DNA of 64,000 nt from Tabrizicola sp. (GTDB lineage Bacteria > Pseudomonadota > Alphaproteobacteria > Rhodobacterales > Rhodobacteraceae): positions 62,001 to 126,000 of the forward strand of contig NZ_JALHQD010000004.1 in the NCBI RefSeq assembly GCF_022842145.1, given 5' to 3'. Positions within the stretch are counted from its first letter, which is position 1, and the number at the start of each line of letters is the position of its first letter. Made by a program: the position numbers and the translations under genes. The notes beneath the pieces were generated by a model. That model saw only the letters and a program-made list of their open reading frames with translations. It had not been told where the DNA came from and made no database searches. Below are positions 2,430 through 12,384 of the stretch, piece after piece.

Positions 2430-3797
2430 GTGACTGACCGGCCCGCCTCGCTTCGTCGGACGATCCTGGTCTGGCTCGTCCTCGCCACCGCCGCCATCGG
2501 TGCCCTGGCGCTTCTCGACACCCGGATCGAAGCCCTGCGTACCGCGCGCGAGGTTTCGGACCGGGTGCTGATCGGATCGGCTATGGCGATCGCCGAAGGG
2601 GTCAGCGTCGACGCAGAAGGCGGCCTTGCCGTCAGCATCCCTTTCTCGGCCCTCGACATGCTGTCGTCGACGGCCCAGGACCAGGTCTTCTACCGCGTCG
2701 ATGGTCCGAACGGTTTTCTGACTGGATATCAGGACCTTGCGCCCGTTTCTTTGATTGCTGGCCAGGAAACTGCCCTTACCGACGCCCGCTACGAAGCCTT
2801 CCCGATCCGCACTGCCACGTTGCTGCGCGAGCTTACCACGGGTGAGGGGACGCTGCCCTTCACCGTCACCGTCGCCGAAACCACCCGCGCGCGCGATGTC
2901 CTTGCCTGGTCGATCCTGTCCCGTTCAGCCCTGCGTATCGCGGGGCTGATTGCAGGCGCGGCGCTGGTCGCCTGGACCGTCGCCACCTATGCGCTGCGAC
3001 CTCTCGACCGGCTGTCCCGCGCCATTTCCGACCGCGAGCCGCATGACCTGACTCCGGTCCGCACCGATGCCCCGGAAGAATTGCGCCCCGTTGTGGACGC
3101 GCTGAACGGTTTTCTCCAGCGCCTGTCCCGCGCGATGGCCGCCTTGCAGAACTTCTCCAGCAACGCCAATCACCAGATCCGCACCCCGCTGACGGTCGCC
3201 AGGACACAGATCGCCGTTTCCGGAAAGACCAACGCCGGCACCGCGTTGGGCAAGGCGGATGCGGCGCTGGTCCGGATCGAGAGGGTGTTGGAGCAGCTTC
3301 TTCTCCTCGCCCGGGTTGAAGCGACCGGAACCAGGCCGTCGCTGCGCCGGGTCGATGCGGCGGCCGTGGCGCGCAGCGTTGCTGCGGATTTCATGCCGCA
3401 GGCGGTCCGATTGGGTCAGGACCTGGGCTATGACGGCCCCGACAGCGCCCATGCCCTGACCGAAGAGGTCCTCCTGGGTGAACTGCTGCGCAACCTTGTC
3501 GGCAACGCCCTTGCCCATTGCCCGCCCGACACCGTGGTCACGCTGCATCTCGCCGATCTGGGCGCCTCCGGGCTGGAGCTTTCGGTCACCGACACCGGCC
3601 CGCCCTTGTCCGACAGCGCCTTCGCCGATCTGCGCAGCCGATTGGCACCAGGACAGGCGATGCGGTCCGGCACCAGGGGTCTGGGTCTGCATATCGTGGC
3701 CGAGATCGCCCAGGCGCTGGACGCCGGCCTGGCCTTGGACCGGGGGCCGGGCGGACGGGGCCTGGCGATCCGCGTCGCTCTGCGGGCGGCGGAATGA
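2430..3797 (+). CDS. tctE: Sensor histidine kinase, TctE type
   Basis: 455 residues from a GTG start; there is no good ATG in frame upstream. An N-terminal membrane helix (about 10-29) and a second (about 168-187) enclose a periplasmic sensor region of the 2CSK_N kind. A short linker leads to the phospho-acceptor H248 in NHQIRTPLTV. The N box is LLRNLVGNALAHCP (about 352-365), then DTGPP (388-392) and GLGLHIV (417-423). The H box reads HQIRTPL, as in TctE-like kinases, rather than HELRTPL. It would phosphorylate the regulator just upstream and probably controls the carboxylate transporter to the left. Confidence 0.85.
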   Translation: MTDRPASLRRTILVWLVLATAAIGALALLDTRIEALRTAREVSDRVLIGSAMAIAEGVSVDAEGGLAVSIPFSALDMLSSTAQDQVFYRVDGPNGFLTGYQDLAPVSLIAGQETALTDARYEAFPIRTATLLRELTTGEGTLPFTVTVAETTRARDVLAWSILSRSALRIAGLIAGAALVAWTVATYALRPLDRLSRAISDREPHDLTPVRTDAPEELRPVVDALNGFLQRLSRAMAALQNFSSNANHQIRTPLTVARTQIAVSGKTNAGTALGKADAALVRIERVLEQLLLLARVEATGTRPSLRRVDAAAVARSVAADFMPQAVRLGQDLGYDGPDSAHALTEEVLLGELLRNLVGNALAHCPPDTVVTLHLADLGASGLELSVTDTGPPLSDSAFADLRSRLAPGQAMRSGTRGLGLHIVAEIAQALDAGLALDRGPGGRGLAIRVALRAAE

Positions 3798-4018
3798 AGA
3801 TTGGCGGGGGCGCAGGCTGATCGAGCGCACCTGGTCGCCTGGAGCGCGTCGGGACCGGCAGGTTGCAATCCCGACGCGCCACGCGCGGTCCGGCAGGACC
3901 TGTCCGTTATCCTCTTGCAATTGTCGCCTGTCCCGACAGGATGCGCGTCGATCCTGACCTGTGCAGTGTCGTCGGCGACGCCAGGAATGGGACGGATTTA
4001 ACGAGCGAGGTCGTGCAC

Positions 4019-4711
4019 GTGAAGCGAGAAACCACCAACCGACTGCGCTTCGTTCTCGAGGATCTCCTTCCGCCGATCGTGCGGGACTCGCAGATCTTCC
4101 ATGCCGTGGCGCGCATGGCCTGGGGCGCCCACGTGACGCGGCTTGCCGAGTTCCGTGAGAATTCGGCTTTCCTGACCCCCGAGGAGTACGGCGCTCTCTA
4201 CCGCGACCATCCCCGGGTGCACGAGGGCACGGACCTGTCGAAGGGGTGCGTGGACGAGATCGTCAAGTCGGTCGTCGGCAACAGCGTCTGCGACATCGGC
4301 TGCGGGACTGGTTTCCTCGTGCGTCAGATCCGCGCCGTCCGTCCCGACCTGGCGCGGGTCGCCGGGTCGGACTTCATCGTGGACGGGATCGTGGCCACGC
4401 CCGGCACCGAGTTCCACGCCGCCAAGGTCGAGGAACTGCCCTTTGCCGACGGCGAATTCGACACCGTGGTGTGCACGCACCTGCTTGAACACCTGCTTGA
4501 GCCCCGAAAGGCCGTGGCCGAGCTGCGGCGGATTGCCCGGCGGCGGCTGATCATCGTCGTGCCCTGTGAACGGGAATACCGCTACACGTTCAACCCGCAT
4601 TTCAACTTTTTCCCCTACCGTGGGTCGTTCCTGCGGCTGATGACCCCGGTGCCCGAGCAGTTCCGCTGCTTCAAGATCGGACGGGATTTTTATTACGAGG
4701 AAACGCGGTAG
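4019..4711 (+). CDS. Class I SAM-dependent methyltransferase
   Basis: 230 residues from a GTG at 4019 with GAGG eight bases upstream. An in-frame ATG at 3863 would add 52 residues that do not look like protein. The SAM-binding motif I is VCDIGCGTGFLV, followed by an acidic loop and the post-motif FDTVVCTHLLEHLLEP, the usual Methyltransf_11 pattern. The C-terminal part (EREYRYTFNPHFNFFPYRGS) is aromatic-rich and may form the substrate site. The substrate is unknown. It stands alone, just outside the tRNA-Gln island, with its stop about 65 bases before the distal repeat. Confidence 0.8.
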   Translation: MKRETTNRLRFVLEDLLPPIVRDSQIFHAVARMAWGAHVTRLAEFRENSAFLTPEEYGALYRDHPRVHEGTDLSKGCVDEIVKSVVGNSVCDIGCGTGFLVRQIRAVRPDLARVAGSDFIVDGIVATPGTEFHAAKVEELPFADGEFDTVVCTHLLEHLLEPRKAVAELRRIARRRLIIVVPCEREYRYTFNPHFNFFPYRGSFLRLMTPVPEQFRCFKIGRDFYYEETR

Positions 4712-4775
4712 CCGGGCCGGACTGCGGCTGCCGCAGCGGCGGCCGTCTCAACTGCGCAGGATGTTGAATGAAGAA

Positions 4776-4801
4776 GGTTGGCTGGGGCGCTAGGATTCGA
4801 A
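4776..4801 (-). repeat. Distal attachment-site copy (3' end of tRNA-Gln)
   Basis: 26 bases identical to 8189-8214. They cover the CCA end, the acceptor 3' strand and the T arm to mid T-loop of tRNA-Gln on the reverse strand. The rest of a tRNA is missing here, so this is the truncated copy left at the far end of an insertion. Confidence 0.85.
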
Positions 4802-4978
4802 GCCCGAGGTAGGACTTGTACCGAAACGATGCCGGGGTCGTTGGCGGTGGGGCAAAGGGTGGGGCGGCCCTCCAACAAAAAGATCTAGTTTCTGGCGGCC
4901 CGAAGCTATGATCTAGTCAGATTTACATAGGACGTACGTTATCACCTTTTCGCCTTACTGCTTCGAGAGGATCGGATT

Positions 4979-6664
4979 ATGCCTTCTAGGCTGACAGTGC
5001 TCGCAGCTCTTGCGTTCGTGATCCTCTCCATGCCGGTGCCCGCCGAAATCGAGTTCATCCGTCCTGGCGATGTTCCCTCAGAAGGCCCCACGGAGCTTGA
5101 TGTTGGCTTGCTTGAGCTTGATGAAGTGTATCGCGGGCTTGACCTCCTGGGCCGCTTATCATCTCGCGCAACAAAGGGTACGGTCATCAGTACTTTAATG
5201 ATCGATTATGCGAAGGACGATATCGACGGCGTGCCAGGCATTACTGATGCTGATCGCGAATTGGCAGCGAGGGTCGTGATTGCACGGCAGCGTTCCAATA
5301 CTTCGCGCTCCTGGGCGGAGAACGACCTCGACGGTAATGGCGTGGTCACTCGCTCCGAACTCATGGTCGTCGGCCGCACGAGGGTGGAAGGAGGTGTCCG
5401 AGGTCAGGGACAGGACGCCTTGATTGAGTTAACTGAGGAGCAACGCGAGACCTTAGTGCTCGACTATGTGGGCACTTTTCTTGGCCAAGATCGCGATAGC
5501 AACGACGCCGTGACGTACGAGGAAGCGATCGCGCCAGTCGATGAAGAAGGCATCCTTACGCGCCTGCGAACGGAAGGCGGGTCGCTGAAACCGGTGTGGG
5601 ACGCAGACGGAAACGGAACAATCACCGAAGTCGAGATTCGGCGATCCGCCGACAGGTTGCTCGGCCTGGTGGACGCCAATGACAACAATGTCGTTGAAGT
5701 TGAAGAGGCACAGGCTGCCTTTCGGGCATTCACCACGTCACGTGCGCGCTCGGAGGATCCTTCGCGTGGCAAACGGATACAGTGCACGCTTCCGGAAGTG
5801 CCCAAGACGGCCGAGATCGTCGTCCTACAAGGGGATTCAGGCTCTGCGGTTACAAACATCGCTCTGAACGTCCCAAATGACCCCGTTATTCGTATGGCTG
5901 AGGTCGAGGTGCCTGAGGGCAAAACAGATGTCTATCTTATCGCATCAATGCGCTCGCCAACTATCTTTCGGATCATGGGAGCAGGTGCGGCGCGAGTGAA
6001 GGCTGTAGTCGGGGTCGCCGCTTTGGTGGCGCTCGAAGGGGGCAAAGCGGATCTCGCCAATACGCCGTGCCACCGGGGGTTTCTCGGGATACGCATCGTA
6101 GAGCCGGGCGGTATCGCTGCGGAATTCGGTCAGGCTCTCGGCCGCGACGATCTTCGCGCCGTCGTCGCCGGACGGTTGGGACACATTAATCTCGGCACGC
6201 TGTCGAACGCGGCAGATACGCTCTTAGTTGGTGATGACCTGCCGGTCATGATGGGTGACGGGCAAATTGTCGTGGATCGATTCTTGTCCTTCGATCCTGG
6301 CGGATTTCAGGTGCTTGATCCGGGAGAAATCCAGTCGACGGTCAAGGTTAGCGCGCGGGAGCTGCCGCCGTTGGAAATTGGACTGATTGTACTTGCTTCA
6401 GAGGGTAAGATCGACTTCGTCTCTCCGCCGCCCGGCTTTTTGACGCGCGACGTGCCCGACGGGATTAAGCGGGTCGTGCCAGACGGCGACGCGACGGCTG
6501 GTATTACCTTGCAAGGCGAGGCCGATGGGGGAAGCAGTGGTCAGTTTCCACTAACTGTAGTGGTGCGGCGCGCTATTGATCTTCCGGCAGGGCTTACGAC
6601 TGAACGCGGCGTCCGACTTATTGTTCCGGATGGCGTGCCCAAGCCACGAGGTTTACGAAACTGA
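4979..6664 (+). CDS. Secreted EF-hand calcium-binding protein of unknown function
   Basis: 561 residues with a signal peptide (about 1-22, ending PVPAEIEF). Four EF-hand-type loops can be read: 116-127 (D-L-D-G-N-G-V-V-T-R-S-E), 171-182 (D-R-D-S-N-D-A-V..E), 208-219 (D-A-D-G-N-G-T-I..E) and 232-243 (D-A-N-D-N-N-V-V..E). The first and third are canonical; the second and fourth lack the central glycine. The remaining 300 residues are rich in Val/Gly and probably beta-sheet, with Cys near 269 and about 363. I do not recognise a family for that part. It is probably periplasmic or extracellular. It is the first gene in the tRNA-Gln island. Confidence 0.7.
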   Translation: MPSRLTVLAALAFVILSMPVPAEIEFIRPGDVPSEGPTELDVGLLELDEVYRGLDLLGRLSSRATKGTVISTLMIDYAKDDIDGVPGITDADRELAARVVIARQRSNTSRSWAENDLDGNGVVTRSELMVVGRTRVEGGVRGQGQDALIELTEEQRETLVLDYVGTFLGQDRDSNDAVTYEEAIAPVDEEGILTRLRTEGGSLKPVWDADGNGTITEVEIRRSADRLLGLVDANDNNVVEVEEAQAAFRAFTTSRARSEDPSRGKRIQCTLPEVPKTAEIVVLQGDSGSAVTNIALNVPNDPVIRMAEVEVPEGKTDVYLIASMRSPTIFRIMGAGAARVKAVVGVAALVALEGGKADLANTPCHRGFLGIRIVEPGGIAAEFGQALGRDDLRAVVAGRLGHINLGTLSNAADTLLVGDDLPVMMGDGQIVVDRFLSFDPGGFQVLDPGEIQSTVKVSARELPPLEIGLIVLASEGKIDFVSPPPGFLTRDVPDGIKRVVPDGDATAGITLQGEADGGSSGQFPLTVVVRRAIDLPAGLTTERGVRLIVPDGVPKPRGLRN

Positions 6665-6710
6665 GTATTCTCCCGTATCTAATTAGGTAGTAGATATAGG
6701 AGCTTATACC

Positions 6711-6878
6711 ATGAAGACGATCTTGGCCCTCGGCTCAGCCGGGGGTCTTTTCATTGCTGCACGGGGGTCCTTCAGCCTCTTCCTTCTTCTGCTCGTGGCC
6801 AAGCAAGTCAGCCAGGACCTTGCGATGGCGCTCTTCAAGGAAGCGCTGAAGGCCGGGTGGTTCAATGGAACCCGGTGA
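6711..6878 (+). CDS. Very small membrane-type hypothetical protein
   Basis: 55 residues starting MKTILALGSAGGLFIAARGS, with one hydrophobic stretch (FSLFLLLLVA, about 21-30) and an amphipathic C-terminus (QVSQDLAMALFKEALKAGWF). The ribosome site AGGAG sits about eight bases before the ATG and is one of the clearest in the island. The end overlaps the next ORF by 14 bases, which suggests coupled translation. No family is recognised. Confidence 0.5.
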   Translation: MKTILALGSAGGLFIAARGSFSLFLLLLVAKQVSQDLAMALFKEALKAGWFNGTR

Positions 6879-7059
6879 CGTCGTGTTGATCAAAGCCTTC
6901 GACGACGTCCCTGAGCATTGGTTCCGCGTGGAGGAGGTCTACGAGGACTGCATCACAGGTCAGGCCCTCAACATGGTCACCAAGCGCTTCAGTGTGCTGA
7001 GGGAGCAGGCGGGGATTTACAGGAAGGGGGTTGCTCATCCGGCTCTTCGGCGAGGCTAA
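6865..7059 (+). CDS. Small hypothetical protein, coupled to the preceding ORF
   Basis: 64 residues: MEPGDVVLIKAFDDVPEHWF opens an acidic, aromatic-rich sequence that continues RVEEVYEDCITGQAL. It looks like a compact beta domain rather than random translation. After about residue 38 the sequence becomes basic and less convincing, so the C-terminus may be altered by a frameshift. The start lies inside the preceding ORF (14-base overlap) in another frame. Function unknown. Confidence 0.45.
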   Translation: MEPGDVVLIKAFDDVPEHWFRVEEVYEDCITGQALNMVTKRFSVLREQAGIYRKGVAHPALRRG

Positions 7060-7143
7060 TGCGGTCACGCAAAACAACATTGACAAGCTGACGGGTCGTT
7101 TCAACATGACGCTTCCGAGGCGTCGATGGGCTTAGTCTATCGC

Positions 7144-7989
7144 TCAATGCAAATTCGAGGAACGGGTTCTAACCCGATATTGTGTCGCGCGCCGGTCCCC
7201 GGGTTGACGGTGCAACTCGAACAGGCCGGACACCTGAAGGACCTGATGCCAGCTACGACATCCATAGTGCTCGGGCAGTTCTTCGGGGTACCGTGCCAAA
7301 ACCCAATCCACTGCTTCAGCAACGGATGCCCAACCGTCACGAGCCAGGTCGTCAGCTGCCTCCTGGAGAGCGATCGCGATTACTGTGTGGCACCAAGGGA
7401 TTCTGTCGTGAATGAGGTCGTCGAGGATCCCCTCAGTATTGAAGGCCTCTGCGGCGAGCTGTTTCAGGCGGGCCAATGCTATCGCTTCCTCGCGGAGGCT
7501 GTCCAAAGAGTGCTTGATCTGATCCGAGGCCGCAATCAAGGCACTCTCAGCCCGTCGGCAACCATCAGCACTCCTGAGGTCGTACTGCTCAACGAAATGG
7601 TGAACCAGATTGTTTCGCAAGAGCACAAGCTCCTTGATGCTGCTCTCGGTTTGAGTGAAGTCATCAGGTGATAGCTCAACTCGTAACCGTATCCTGAACG
7701 ATGCGGAGCCGTCTTCGACGGGGGGCGATGCTGCTTCGGCGTTCCCATCGCTGGTTAGATAGTCTCCGAGAAACTCACCGGCCAAGGTTCCGAGCGTTTT
7801 GCGCCTGACATCAGTTGTCGGGGCAACTCGGGTGTCGTTGTGCGACTGGACGGCTCCCGAAATATCGCGCTCACCTAAAAGGACCTTCATCAAGATCTCA
7901 TACCTCTGCAAATTCAGTAGGCAGGATCCCAGCAACCGCTCAACCTCGTGTCGAAGTGCCTGAAGGTTCTCGTCTGATGGTTCAGTCAT
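7144..7989 (-). CDS. HEPN-like plus OST-HTH/LOTUS domain protein, predicted RNA-binding or RNase
   Basis: 281 residues. The N-terminal two thirds is helical, with an R-x4-H motif (RNNLVH, R125 to H130) in the sequence LVLLRNNLVHHFVEQYDL, the signature of HEPN RNases. The C-terminal segment (about 205-275) has the winged-helix pattern of OST-HTH/LOTUS domains: DGWASVAEAVDWV, then YGCRSWHQVLQVSGLFELH and YRVR at the end. LOTUS domains bind RNA, and bacterial members with this architecture are annotated as LOTUS proteins of unknown role. It lies in the tRNA-Gln island next to the intact tRNA and faces away from it. A defence, toxin or RNA-control role is inference only. Confidence 0.7.
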   Translation of the reverse strand: MTEPSDENLQALRHEVERLLGSCLLNLQRYEILMKVLLGERDISGAVQSHNDTRVAPTTDVRRKTLGTLAGEFLGDYLTSDGNAEAASPPVEDGSASFRIRLRVELSPDDFTQTESSIKELVLLRNNLVHHFVEQYDLRSADGCRRAESALIAASDQIKHSLDSLREEAIALARLKQLAAEAFNTEGILDDLIHDRIPWCHTVIAIALQEAADDLARDGWASVAEAVDWVLARYPEELPEHYGCRSWHQVLQVSGLFELHRQPGDRRATQYRVRTRSSNLH

Positions 7990-8188
7990 GCTGATCTTGG
8001 CCTATGTGCCAGGTTGGACGGCTTGATCGGGCTCGGGATGCCCCAACGACTACTTAGCAGGCCACTATGGCAAGTGTGAGGTCTGAGGCGGCATGGTGTG
8101 TGACAGAATGTGGGGCATCCCGTGGGGCAATTCGCTTACCCTAGCAAAAGGAGCTGCAGGGTAGGTTTATGCCACGAAGGAAGAAATT

Positions 8189-8214
8189 GGTTGGCTGGGG
8201 CGCTAGGATTCGAA
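8189..8214 (-). repeat. Proximal attachment-site copy within tRNA-Gln
   Basis: 26 bases identical to 4776-4801. Positions 8192-8214 form the 3' end of the intact tRNA-Gln; three more bases extend beyond its CCA. Confidence 0.85.
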
Positions 8215-8266
8215 CCTAGGTATGTCGGTACCAAAAACCGATGCCTTACCACTTGGCGACGCCCCA
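8192..8266 (-). tRNA. tRNA-Gln (UUG anticodon)
   Basis: Reverse-strand cloverleaf of 75 bases. The acceptor TGGGGCG pairs with CGCCCCA, the discriminator is G73 and the CCA is encoded. The anticodon stem CGGT/ACCG encloses TTTTGGT, giving anticodon TTG. The T arm contains GGTTCGAATCC. Its 3' end served as the integration site for the island at 4776-8188, and the insertion restored a complete tRNA. Confidence 0.95.
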
Positions 8267-8378: not shown

Positions 8379-9545
8379 ATGACTTGGGACGTTCTCATCC
8401 TTGGGGCCGGGGCTGCCGGCATGATGGCCGCCGTCGAAGCCGGACGCCGGGGCCGCAAGGTTCTGGTCATCGACCACGCCAAGGCGCCGGGCGAAAAGAT
8501 CCGGATTTCGGGCGGCGGGCGGTGCAATTTCACCAACCTGAACATCGAGCCCGATCGCTTCCTGTCGCGAAACCCGCGCTTTGCGCTCTCGGCGCTGAAG
8601 CGGTTTACCCAGTGGGATTTCATCGCGCGCATGGATGCCGCGGGGATTGCCTGGCACGAGAAGACGCTGGGGCAGCTTTTCTGCGACGGGTCGGCGACGC
8701 AGGTGGTCGAGATGCTGCTCCGCGACATGCAGGCGGCCGGCGTCACGCTTTGGCTGGGCTGCGCCCCGGGCGAGATCCGGCAGACTGCCGCAGGGTTCGA
8801 GGTCGATACCGCGCGGGGTCTGCAGCGGGCTCGGGCCGTCGTGGTGGCGACCGGGGGCAAGTCGATCCCGAAGATGGGGGCCACGGGCTATGGCTACCAG
8901 ATTGCCGAGCGTTTCGGTCTGCCCCTCGTCGAGACGCGCCCCGCTTTGGTGCCGCTGACCTTCGCGGACCACGAACTGGCCTGGATGCGCGAGTTGGCCG
9001 GGGTTTCCTTGGCCGCGCGCGTCTCTTGCGGCCGCCAGGGCTTTGACGAGGCGGTGCTTTTCACGCATCGGGGGCTTTCGGGGCCGGCGGTGCTGCAGAT
9101 CTCGTCCTACTGGCGCGAGGGCGAGGCCCTCTCGGTGAACCTTCTGCCGGGGCGGGATGTCGCGGCCGAGTTGCGGGCGGCGCGGGGGAAGGCTGCGCTG
9201 CGGACAGTGCTGGGCCGCTGGCTGCCCGAACGGCTGGCGCGACACCTGGAGGACGCTGCCGGAGTGTCGGGAACGATGGCCGAGCTTCCCGGCGCGGTGC
9301 TTGACCGGGTGGCCGCAGGCATCGCGGACTGGCGGCTGGTGCCGGTCGGGTCCGAAGGCTACCGGACCGCCGAGGTCACGCTGGGGGGCGTCGACACGGC
9401 GGCGCTGGACGGGCGGACGATGGAAGCGAAGGGCGTGCCGGGGCTCTACTTCATCGGCGAGGTGGTGGACGTGACCGGCTGGCTGGGCGGCTACAATTTC
9501 CAGTGGGCCTGGTCTTCGGGCTGGGCTGCGGGTCAGGCGGTTTAA
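8379..9545 (+). CDS. NAD(P)/FAD-dependent oxidoreductase, HI0933/BaiN family
   Basis: 388 residues. The N-terminal Rossmann FAD motif is ILGAGAAGMMAAVEAGRRG followed by an acidic VLVID. The family-specific ISGGGRCNFTN follows (about 46-56). The middle contains ATGGKSIPKMGATGYGYQIA and the C-terminus has the second FAD contact, YFIGEVVDVTGWLGGYNFQWAW. The length and these motifs match HI0933-like flavoproteins, whose physiological substrate is mostly unknown; some homologues reduce bile-acid intermediates. The gene stands alone, divergent from the tRNA and convergent with kdsA. Confidence 0.9.
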   Translation: MTWDVLILGAGAAGMMAAVEAGRRGRKVLVIDHAKAPGEKIRISGGGRCNFTNLNIEPDRFLSRNPRFALSALKRFTQWDFIARMDAAGIAWHEKTLGQLFCDGSATQVVEMLLRDMQAAGVTLWLGCAPGEIRQTAAGFEVDTARGLQRARAVVVATGGKSIPKMGATGYGYQIAERFGLPLVETRPALVPLTFADHELAWMRELAGVSLAARVSCGRQGFDEAVLFTHRGLSGPAVLQISSYWREGEALSVNLLPGRDVAAELRAARGKAALRTVLGRWLPERLARHLEDAAGVSGTMAELPGAVLDRVAAGIADWRLVPVGSEGYRTAEVTLGGVDTAALDGRTMEAKGVPGLYFIGEVVDVTGWLGGYNFQWAWSSGWAAGQAV

Positions 9546-9777: not shown

Positions 9778-10608
9778 TCAGACCCGCAGCGGATCGGCCT
9801 TGGCCAGGCGGTCGAAACCCATGAGGCTTTCCACCAGCGCCGCCATCCGGGAGAGAGGAATCATGTTCGGCCCGTCCGAGGGGGCGCGGTCCGGATCCTC
9901 GTGCGTCTCGATGAAGACACCGGCTATTCCCAACGACACGGCGGCGCGAGCCATCACGGGTGCAAATTCGCGCTGGCCGCCCGAGGAATCCCCCTGGCCG
10001 CCCGGCTGCTGCACCGAATGGGTGGCATCCATGATCACCGGGTAGCCGGTCTTGGCCATGATCGGCAGGCTGCGCATGTCGGTGACCAGGGCGTTGTAGC
10101 CGAAGCTGACACCGCGCTCGGTCAAGAGGATGCGGTCGTTGCCGGTCGAGGCGACCTTTGCCGCCACGTTCGCCATGTCCCAGGGGGCCAGGAACTGACC
10201 CTTCTTGACGTTCACCACGGCCCCGGTTTCACCCGCGGCGAGCAGCAGGTCGGTCTGGCGGCAAAGGAAGGCCGGGATCTGGATCACGTCGACGACCGTC
10301 GCCGCCTCACGCGCCTGACCTGCGTCGTGGACATCGGTCAGGACGGGCAGTCCCATGGCGCGGATCGCCGCCAGCACCTGAAGGCCAGCCTCCATCCCAA
10401 GGCCGCGCTTGCCCGACAGCGAGGTGCGGTTGGCCTTGTCGTAGCTGGCCTTGAAGACATATTGCGCGCCTGCGGCCGCACAGGCCTGCGCCATTTCGCC
10501 CGCGATCATCTGGGCGTGGTCCAGGCTTTCCAGCTGGCAGGGGCCGGCAATGACCAGAAGCGGCAGGTCATTGCCGACGGTCAACCCGCCGATCCTTACA
10601 TCCGTCAT
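9778..10608 (-). CDS. kdsA: 3-deoxy-8-phosphooctulonate synthase
   Basis: 276 residues, the normal KdsA length. It condenses arabinose 5-phosphate with phosphoenolpyruvate to make Kdo-8-phosphate in the cytosol. Diagnostic segments are LLVIAGPCQLESLDHA, YVFKASYDKANRTS, LPVLTDVHDAGQA and a C-terminal VMDATHSVQQPGGQ. It follows kpsE by nine bases on the same strand. Kdo is needed for lipopolysaccharide and for the lipid linker of ABC-exported capsules, so its place at the end of a capsule-export operon is logical. Confidence 0.95.
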   Translation of the reverse strand: MTDVRIGGLTVGNDLPLLVIAGPCQLESLDHAQMIAGEMAQACAAAGAQYVFKASYDKANRTSLSGKRGLGMEAGLQVLAAIRAMGLPVLTDVHDAGQAREAATVVDVIQIPAFLCRQTDLLLAAGETGAVVNVKKGQFLAPWDMANVAAKVASTGNDRILLTERGVSFGYNALVTDMRSLPIMAKTGYPVIMDATHSVQQPGGQGDSSGGQREFAPVMARAAVSLGIAGVFIETHEDPDRAPSDGPNMIPLSRMAALVESLMGFDRLAKADPLRV

Positions 10609-10617
10609 GCGTCTTTC

Positions 10618-12384
10618 CTACGACGAAACCTGTTCCCGCAGGATCGCGGCGGTCATCGAGACCATGAGGTAAATCCCCAGCATGATCAACAGCGTCACCA
10701 GCGTGTTCTCGAATGCGCGGGGGAAGGCGGGCTCGTCCGGCGGGATCGGGCTGACCGACAGCGACAGATAGCGGACCTGACGGTTGGCCTCGACGCGCGA
10801 GGTCTCCATCGACTGGAGCGCCTGGGCAAGCAGCATCTGCCGGGTCTGCAGGTCGGCCTGCGCGACAAGAAGCTGGCCCTGGATTTCCGCAAGACTGGTC
10901 GCACCCGCCGTGGTTTCGGTCATCCGGGCGCGCAGCTCGCCGACCTGGCCTTCCAGGGTTTCGATGCGCTGCTTGATCGGGGCCATCCGCGCCTGGTTCG
11001 GCTCGGCGTTGGATTCCATCTGCGCCAGCGCCAGGCGTTCCTGGGTAAGCTGGTTCTCAAGTCCCGAGATCTGGCCGACGATCAGGCCGACTTCGGTTTC
11101 CGAGGACAGGATCTTGAACTTCTCCTGCAGCTCGATCAGCCGTTTCTGCGACTCGGTCAGCGCGGTCTGCGCGGAATCGTAGCCCGCCTGCGCGTCACGC
11201 ATCTGGTCACCCCGAAGCCGCTGCGTCAGGTGGTCGACCTGTTCCTCGGCATAGCCGATCAGCTGCCGCGACCAGTCCGCGGCGACCTGGGGATCGGCCG
11301 CGATCACGTCCATGCGGATCACGCCCTCGGTGGTGTCGAACGAGATCTTCAGGAACTTCCTGTAAACCTTGTAGGCGGCTTCCATGCCGGCATCTGCGGC
11401 CAGCCTTTGCAACTGGTCGATCTCGCTGCTTTGAAAATGGGTCCGGAAGCCCAGGTCCTCGTCCAGCCGGCCCATCGCCTCGCGCGATTGCAGGTAGCCC
11501 TGCACCGCGATCGAATCCTGCGAGGTGGCGAATGCGGTGCCGGAAAACAGCCCGCCCAACGATCCGCCACCGCCACTGGGGCCAGCCTGCTGGATGACGA
11601 ATTCGGACCGCACCGAATACATCGGCGTCGCCATCATGTAGAAGTACCAGCCCGCAAGGATCGTCGGCAGAAGGACGAAGGCGAACAGCCGCGCGCCCAG
11701 AAGCGCCAGGCGGCGACGGCGGCGGCGGGCGATGTCCTGCTGCATGCGCAGGATTTCCGCCGCCTGGTTGACCTCGGCGCGCTGCTCGGTCGAGGGGACC
11801 GCGATCGGCTTTGCCTTCTTTGGCAGTTGCACGACGTCGCCGGGCAGGCGGGCGATTTCGGTCCCGGTCCCGGTGACGGGCTGCGCGGGTTCCTGGGTGG
11901 TGCGCGCTTGCGCGTCCGCCGAGGGGGTGACCACGCGCAGGATCGAGGCGCGCGAAAACGGATCGACGCCGGATTCGCGCAGAAGACGGACCGCGTCGGC
12001 TTCGGATTTGGGGGCAAGCTGGCTGCGCTGTGCGATCAGGAGGGCGCGGCGCAACTGGCGTTCCGTCAGTCCCTCGGTCAGGATCGCGGCATTGACGCGG
12101 GCAATCTCGTCGGGAGTGACGGCGCGGGGGGGCGGCTCGGCGGTGGCGTCAGGCTCGCGGGGCGAGGGTTCGGGGGTCGCGGGGTCCAGGGTCGCGGGGT
12201 CGGGGATTTGGGCCGGATCGGGACCGCGACTGGCTGCCTGATCCTCGGGGCGGCGAAAGTCCATATTGCCAAAGCCGTCGTCCTGGGTGTCGAAAAGCTG
12301 ACCGCCCTCGCCTCCATCGGGTGCGACGGTCGACCGGTCCACCGGGCGGGTGTTGTAGCGCGGAACCTTAGGCGTCGTAGTCAT
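10618..12384 (-). CDS. kpsE: Capsule polysaccharide export inner-membrane protein, KpsE/CtrB type
   Basis: 588 residues from ATG 12384, which overlaps the end of kpsT by 17 bases. The open frame extends further upstream inside kpsT, but that part is shadow. One membrane helix near 226-249 (LALLGARLFAFVLLPTILAG) is followed by MYSVRSEFVIQQAG, the usual start of the periplasmic domain. A coiled coil then runs to a second helix near the C-terminus (about 562-582). This is the polysaccharide co-polymerase fold of KpsE/Wzz proteins. Oddly, it carries about 225 cytosolic residues rich in Pro/Asp before the first helix, whereas typical KpsE is near 380 residues in total. It acts with KpsT in capsule export. 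Confidence 0.85.
   Translation of the reverse strand: MTTTPKVPRYNTRPVDRSTVAPDGGEGGQLFDTQDDGFGNMDFRRPEDQAASRGPDPAQIPDPATLDPATPEPSPREPDATAEPPPRAVTPDEIARVNAAILTEGLTERQLRRALLIAQRSQLAPKSEADAVRLLRESGVDPFSRASILRVVTPSADAQARTTQEPAQPVTGTGTEIARLPGDVVQLPKKAKPIAVPSTEQRAEVNQAAEILRMQQDIARRRRRRLALLGARLFAFVLLPTILAGWYFYMMATPMYSVRSEFVIQQAGPSGGGGSLGGLFSGTAFATSQDSIAVQGYLQSREAMGRLDEDLGFRTHFQSSEIDQLQRLAADAGMEAAYKVYRKFLKISFDTTEGVIRMDVIAADPQVAADWSRQLIGYAEEQVDHLTQRLRGDQMRDAQAGYDSAQTALTESQKRLIELQEKFKILSSETEVGLIVGQISGLENQLTQERLALAQMESNAEPNQARMAPIKQRIETLEGQVGELRARMTETTAGATSLAEIQGQLLVAQADLQTRQMLLAQALQSMETSRVEANRQVRYLSLSVSPIPPDEPAFPRAFENTLVTLLIMLGIYLMVSMTAAILREQVSS

Follow-up and report, generated by a model that had tools for sequence, protein, structure and literature searches.

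An integrase-less 3.4-kb island at tRNA-Gln of Tabrizicola sp. as a probable decayed member of a small integrative island family of Rhodobacterales

The 3.4-kb island at the tRNA-Gln gene in the window, i.e. the whole stretch of 64,000 nucleotides of Tabrizicola sp. analysed here, very likely (probability roughly 0.88) belongs, in a decayed state, to a Rhodobacterales family of small integrative islands that reside at tRNA-Gln. Two origins had been offered for it by a first-pass annotation, a stripped remnant and a cargo-only element mobilised from elsewhere. Due to the scars of an integrase and a primase gene and the family repeat pairs at both ends, the stripped remnant is best supported, and a cargo-only element, though conceivable, is not needed to explain the findings. 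The island would have arrived complete and been inserted by its own integrase, after which integrase and primase would have been lost in successive deletions. The perfect 26-nt core would also fit a later arrival, with insertion and deletion in another order. Scars and end signatures can trace an apparently integrase-less island to its parent. The following features were identified:

4776..4801, plus strand: attL core, the displaced tRNA-Gln 3′ end (perfect 26-nt repeat)
4802..4833, plus strand: element side of attL, degenerate and tRNA-Gln-like (gapped alignment; 81% self match)
4847..4865, plus strand: arm-type repeat pair of the left end, GTGGGGC-N5-GTGGGGC (67 nt to the core start)
4979..6664, plus strand: intact cargo gene for a 561-aa EF-hand protein (EF-hand_1, EF-hand_6; 64% homologue in G213)
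6671..6970, plus strand: integrase-upstream DNA of intact relatives (93.3% identity to L041 1808-2107, G008)
6968..7031, plus strand: scar of the integrase gene (roughly codons 319-339 of 405; 93.75% DNA identity to L041 619-682, G008)
7034..7115, plus strand: scar of a P4-like primase gene (82.9% DNA identity to L050 11063-11144, inside ORF 10409-11875)
7144..7989, minus strand: intact cargo gene for a 281-aa predicted HEPN/OST-HTH protein (RNxLVHH motif; weak C-terminal OST-HTH/LOTUS match)
8110..8128, plus strand: arm-type repeat pair of the right end, GTGGGGC-N5-GTGGGGC (83 nt to the core start)
8189..8214, plus strand: attR core, within and just past the tRNA-Gln 3′ end (perfect 26-nt repeat)
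8192..8266, minus strand: intact tRNA-Gln (TTG) (ARAGORN; Rfam RF00005, 62.5 bits)

The window corresponds to C4:62001-126000 of the genome G000 (4.33 Mb, 18 contigs). The tRNA-Gln(TTG) at 8192-8266 (minus strand) is the sole tRNA that ARAGORN detected in the 64-kb window. Its 3′ end is repeated perfectly over 26 nt (4776-4801 and 8189-8214), and this core pair is the only 26-mer present twice in the 64 kb. The first observation of a low-GC segment of 3.4 kb between perfect tRNA-Gln 3′-end repeats was confirmed, as the GC content is 57.2% in 4802-8188 compared to 65.9% in the rest of the window; the lowest value among 524 overlapping segments of equal size to the right of tRNA-Gln was 61.8%. 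A gapped alignment of tRNA-Gln with 4776-4833 reached a score of 37 (maximum 13 in 2196 overlapping 103-nt segments right of position 9000), so the likeness to the tRNA extends past the left core. This extended resemblance, together with the neighbouring tRNA-Gln gene pairs existing in L059 and L061, would suit a partial tRNA duplication unrelated to insertion. Such a duplication is, however, highly improbable since the same tRNA fragment with the same +67 spacing occurs in other, integrase-bearing islands, tRNA-Gln sites without an island exist in G009 and G011, and the 3.4 kb contain the integrase and primase scars. The proposed tyrosine-recombinase insertion at the T arm of tRNA-Gln is supported by integrase-bearing relatives, which share the site and the kind of ends. 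When the left cores of L052, L054 and L055 were compared with the tRNA of the respective host, agreement ended after GGAT or GGATTC; this is compatible with a T-loop crossover.

The view that the island encodes no recombinase holds for function, as an intact gene was not detected in it, but not for the sequence: a 64-bp scar of the gene for a 405-aa integrase (6968-7031) is the only recombinase sequence found there. The complete integrase has four motifs (250-256, 342-346, 368-371 and 378-381), which presumably hold the catalytic Arg, His and Tyr residues and all lie outside the scar. The adjacent upstream DNA (6671-6970) contains, according to protein matches, a 55-aa ORF (6711-6878) and a truncated ORF of the 68-aa type starting at 6865. 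Scar and upstream DNA are 93-94% identical to G008 and 85-91% identical to G030. At the deletion junction, where the two halves (6671-6970 and 6968-7031) share the three bases TCA, the upstream DNA is fused to integrase codon ~319, with ~1.1 kb gone relative to G008. After codon ~339, the window continues with the primase fragment, which is 85.7% identical over 28 residues (E 2.4e-10) to the primase protein of L054. The source gene of this scar is present in L049, L050 and L054, and the L049 relative matches DUF5906 and a PHROG DNA primase. The two scars indicate that integrase and primase were lost in no fewer than two deletions. Where some members of the family have the primase, others, such as L047 (10550-12118), harbor a gene for a 522-aa protein of phrog_4756 (unknown function), parts of which we take to recall the palm of family-A DNA polymerases.

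Apart from the scar, no complete integrase of the family was detected in this genome; the best hit, G000:C4:736-1116, has 31% identity over 122 residues. It had been proposed to look for a matching tyrosine recombinase elsewhere in the genome; four Pfam recombinases are encoded, none of which is a close match to the family integrase. Those on C6 and C9 matched it partially with 23-26% identity and two did not match, and the four were rejected as a source, as was a fifth recombinase, the 31% match on C4. On G000:C9, two unrelated tyrosine recombinases are followed, close to a contig end, by ORFs that, in our opinion, look like a type III restriction-modification pair (L038:8962-18391).

Both island ends retain the pair TGGGGC-N6-TGGGGC that is typical of the island family. 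It lies at +67 in all eight left ends that were printed (window, L040, L041, L043, L044, L052, L054 and L055); L050 and L051 also possess the left pair, without a core recognised by the script. Right ends are not uniform: in six of 12 printed, the pair is located 83-85 nt from the core (window, L045, L049, L050, L057 and L061), in the other six at 117-563 nt (L040, L052, L053, L054, L060 and L111). By their position, the pairs look like arm sites of an integrase. In this genome, GTGGGGC-N4to8-GTGGGGC occurs three times (two times in the backwards control), and two of these are the island ends. The third (C2:98407) was dismissed as an island end since there is no core nearby and no family recombinase on C2. 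Searching 32 genomes of the genus with the left-pair pattern revealed five places without mismatch, all of them at tRNA-Gln fragments. With one mismatch, eight further places were hit, no better than the ten hits of the control. The right-end pattern was detected in G000 and G008 only (control: no hits), and the right repeat pair is present in four of the 27 genus loci in which the tRNA core was visible (L001, L002, L007 and L012; L009 is without left flank). Among 394 genomes of the taxonomic family, this genome alone possesses the strict left-end signature, a pattern that would miss variants such as L052. With these patterns, further tRNA-Gln-specific islands of this family can be searched for in Rhodobacterales.

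A complete 405-aa integrase gene next to a tRNA-Gln fragment was identified in three of the 32 genus genomes (G008, G018 and G030; 94-100% mutual identity), and the G030 copy matches Pfam DUF6538 and Phage_integrase. In GTDB, the integrase is encoded at 16 loci, 11 of which include tRNA-Gln in the stretch fetched and two more a fragment of it (L046 and L048); L058, with a 53% integrase, revealed neither tRNA nor core in 17 kb. At E <= 1e-60, the family integrase was found in 18 of the 394 taxonomic-family genomes (21 places, all with 45-64% identity); 50,697 phage records yielded three matches of 25-28% identity. Integrase and both ends were seen in G030, L050, L052, L054 and L055. The related islands occupy the T-arm end of tRNA-Gln, have the left pair at a fixed distance and carry the integrase followed by further genes, some with a P4-like primase. 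As in the family, the cores of the window island both consist of the tRNA-Gln 3′ end, and there is a repeat pair inside the left core at 67 nt and another one beside the right core; the right-end distance varies within the family, and the right pair of L055 was found in relaxed form only. Since the complete integrase gene is replaced by a 64-bp scar, the island is a decayed descendant and not an intact member. An intact relative uniting this integrase type, this primase type and the EF-hand gene was not found.

Some further peculiarities were observed at related sites. Four related islands show, to the right beside the tRNA, a second copy of chromosomal sequence from beyond the left core, with the core counted in (L040:15479-15689 of G030, 211 columns at 99% identity; L054:12430-12980, 555 at 86%; L055:12537-13105, 575 at 78%; L105:3-509 of G024, 510 at 82%), so that the flanking repeat greatly exceeds the tRNA end in length. 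The duplicated copy of G030 starts ~85 nt past the repeat pair, at the expected core position. G024, an incomplete assembly, has a left end without an integrase match. In G023 (L111:14612-14889), the right repeat pair and an 87-nt stretch adjoin tRNA-Gln. This stretch shares 84% identity with the terminal part of L111:6420-7250, a gene that by its name we take to be kdsA. Neither a left core nor an integrase match was detected in the 14 kb left of the right pair of L111, and the G023 site is perhaps another remnant. In two Gemmobacter records (L059:5486-5776 and L061:1101-1391), a pair of tRNA-Gln genes with a start-to-start distance of 216 nt lies beside the island.

Phage satellites with an integrase and a P4-like primase are a known class. 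Some relatives of the window island resemble them in combining a tyrosine integrase, a P4-like primase and an HNH endonuclease. No packaging or capsid gene was detected among the proteins scanned, no structural gene among the eight scanned with PHROGs and no relative of the integrase in IMG/VR. The window island resembles a CIME (cis-mobilizable element) as outlined in PMC5704250: attL and attR are kept, the integration genes are lost, and it appears to be part of an array of decayed elements accumulated at a single target gene. On the other hand, no transfer gene (relaxase, conjugation) was found among the proteins of the relatives scanned (ten with Pfam, eight with PHROGs, nine with NCBIfam), so a descent from an ICE or IME with transfer genes, as implied by the CIME concept, would be hypothetical. 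That islands decay into remnants with retained att sites is already well known from the same account (PMC5704250). In kind, the window island is ordinary: a CIME-like leftover, stripped of its integrase, from a small family of tRNA-Gln islands. A published description of this family was not met in the literature search; the pertinent passages of PMC8224337 merely name tRNA-Gln among the prophage sites of Rhodobacteraceae.

By itself, the island most likely no longer works as an element. It would now be fixed unless a related integrase came from outside; its ends could possibly serve such an enzyme, giving a residual mobility in trans. A precedent for an island moved without a recombinase of its own is the microcin H47 island of E. 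coli, which, as described in PMC3191183, is likewise small, situated between repeats and devoid of an own integrase gene. By contrast, mobility by outside functions was shown there (PMC3191183), whereas it would be a possibility in the window island, which contains an integrase scar. A non-autonomous but still mobile derivative, moved by integrases of intact relatives via its cores and repeat pairs, would agree with the two perfect cores, with repeat pairs that both fit the family and with the existence of integrase-bearing relatives in the genus. Moreover, ends without integrase may not be unique to this genome (left end in G024, right end only in G023). Nevertheless, this alternative is quite unlikely: the genome lacks a family integrase beyond the scar and the distant match on C4, the EF-hand gene is virtually confined to this genome within the genus, and the strict left-end signature did not recur in the other taxonomic-family genomes. 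It is similarly doubtful that the island represents a tyrosine-recombinase counterpart of a miniature transposon, in which selection would keep cores and pairs and visiting integrases would move island and cargo between strains. Decay of a once complete island is the preferred reading, although the non-uniform right ends, the poor outcome of the left-pair pattern with one mismatch, the bare L058 locus, the missing intact relative with this gene combination and the varying neighbours of tRNA-Gln count against it.

To the left of the island, three features are relevant for the history of the site:

2430..3797, plus strand: histidine kinase gene, chromosomal landmark outside the island (orthologues with 77-83% identity)
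3800..3824, plus strand: degenerate copy of the tRNA-Gln 3′ end (local alignment score 13)
4016..4711, plus strand: methyltransferase gene (Pfam Methyltransf_11, 1.5e-14; partial genus matches, 28-40%)

The first-pass annotation had predicted an empty site joining the methyltransferase gene to the tRNA. Such a site was not seen; in G009 and G011, which have no island, the histidine kinase gene directly adjoins tRNA-Gln. The orthologue of the kinase ends by the core or tRNA in six of 12 genus loci (L040, L041, L042, L044, L112 and L113), two of which are the island-free sites of G009 and G011, while a kinase remnant (L114) was found in one and other neighbours in five. The neighbour of tRNA-Gln thus varies, and the kinase is probably the original one in this lineage. 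In the window, the order is kinase, degenerate core, methyltransferase and good core. In two relatives, the tRNA itself occupies the place after the kinase stop codon that the degenerate core has in the window, which suggests a tandem of two decayed islands. The copy at 3800-3824 is probably the scar of an older insertion, and the methyltransferase gene, probably not native, is probably the cargo of an older decayed island (~3825-4775), a tandem inferred from one degenerate 25-nt match. The 3.4-kb island would then have landed beside this older and more decayed one. The array fits the accretion of decayed elements in the description given by PMC5704250. The methyltransferase might instead be native and 3800-3824 a chance match, which would leave a single island. 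The host-like GC content of the methyltransferase segment (64.9%) and the lack of a GTGGGGC pair near 3800-3824 are in line with this assumption. It is unlikely, though, because none of 10618 overlapping 48-nt window segments (5288 on the plus and 5330 on the minus strand; best 12) attained a score of 13, the match lies at the site predicted from the relatives, and methyltransferase matches in the genus are only partial. Tandem islands call for some caution, as flank genes taken as native may belong to older islands of the same array.

Two cargo genes are intact. The 561-aa protein matches EF-hand_1 with E 1.1e-5 and 25.0 bits, compared to a Pfam cut-off of 25.4, and EF-hand_6 at the cut-off; its hydrophobic N terminus suggests a predicted export. 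The 3.4 kb are not conserved in most relatives, as, of the 31 other genus genomes, 30 lack a match to the EF-hand gene and G007 has a weak partial one (30%). Eight of the 394 taxonomic-family genomes, own included, have matches, besides the 64% homologue of G213, found on a 4.9-kb contig devoid of tRNA and core. No plasmid match and no confirmed relative in IMG/VR were obtained, and PDB gave nothing better than E 0.16 (calmodulins). The structure model (mean pLDDT 45.7) was discarded.

The OST-HTH match of the 281-aa protein (8.7e-4, 19.5 bits) is below the Pfam cut-off of 23.8. Matches to this protein occur in nine of the 394 taxonomic-family genomes, own included, and RNxLVHH is invariant in all five aligned sequences, from the window and four of the eight other genomes. 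The HEPN RNase motif is given in PMC3710099, in its motif description, as Rx4-6H with a polar residue after R. A role of the 281-aa protein as an RNase or in defence would be compatible with the motif; PADLOC gave no defence match for four island ORFs at E up to 1, and the best PHROG values for the same ORFs were 0.073 and 0.24. In the neighbourhoods fetched for five of the eight other homologues, neither a tRNA-Gln core nor the repeat pair was present. The structure model (mean pLDDT 70.7) had no PDB match at E <= 0.001; weak matches were small winged-helix domains including 2kpm (E 0.072) and a TDRD5 motif, 3s93 (E 0.69), both presumably LOTUS domains. In G008 (L045:65-1957), the right half of the island comprises a transposase pair, which we take to be IS3-like, and a gene for a 253-aa protein with RDKLLH and without a PHROG match, which might be a further HEPN-like cargo protein in this position.
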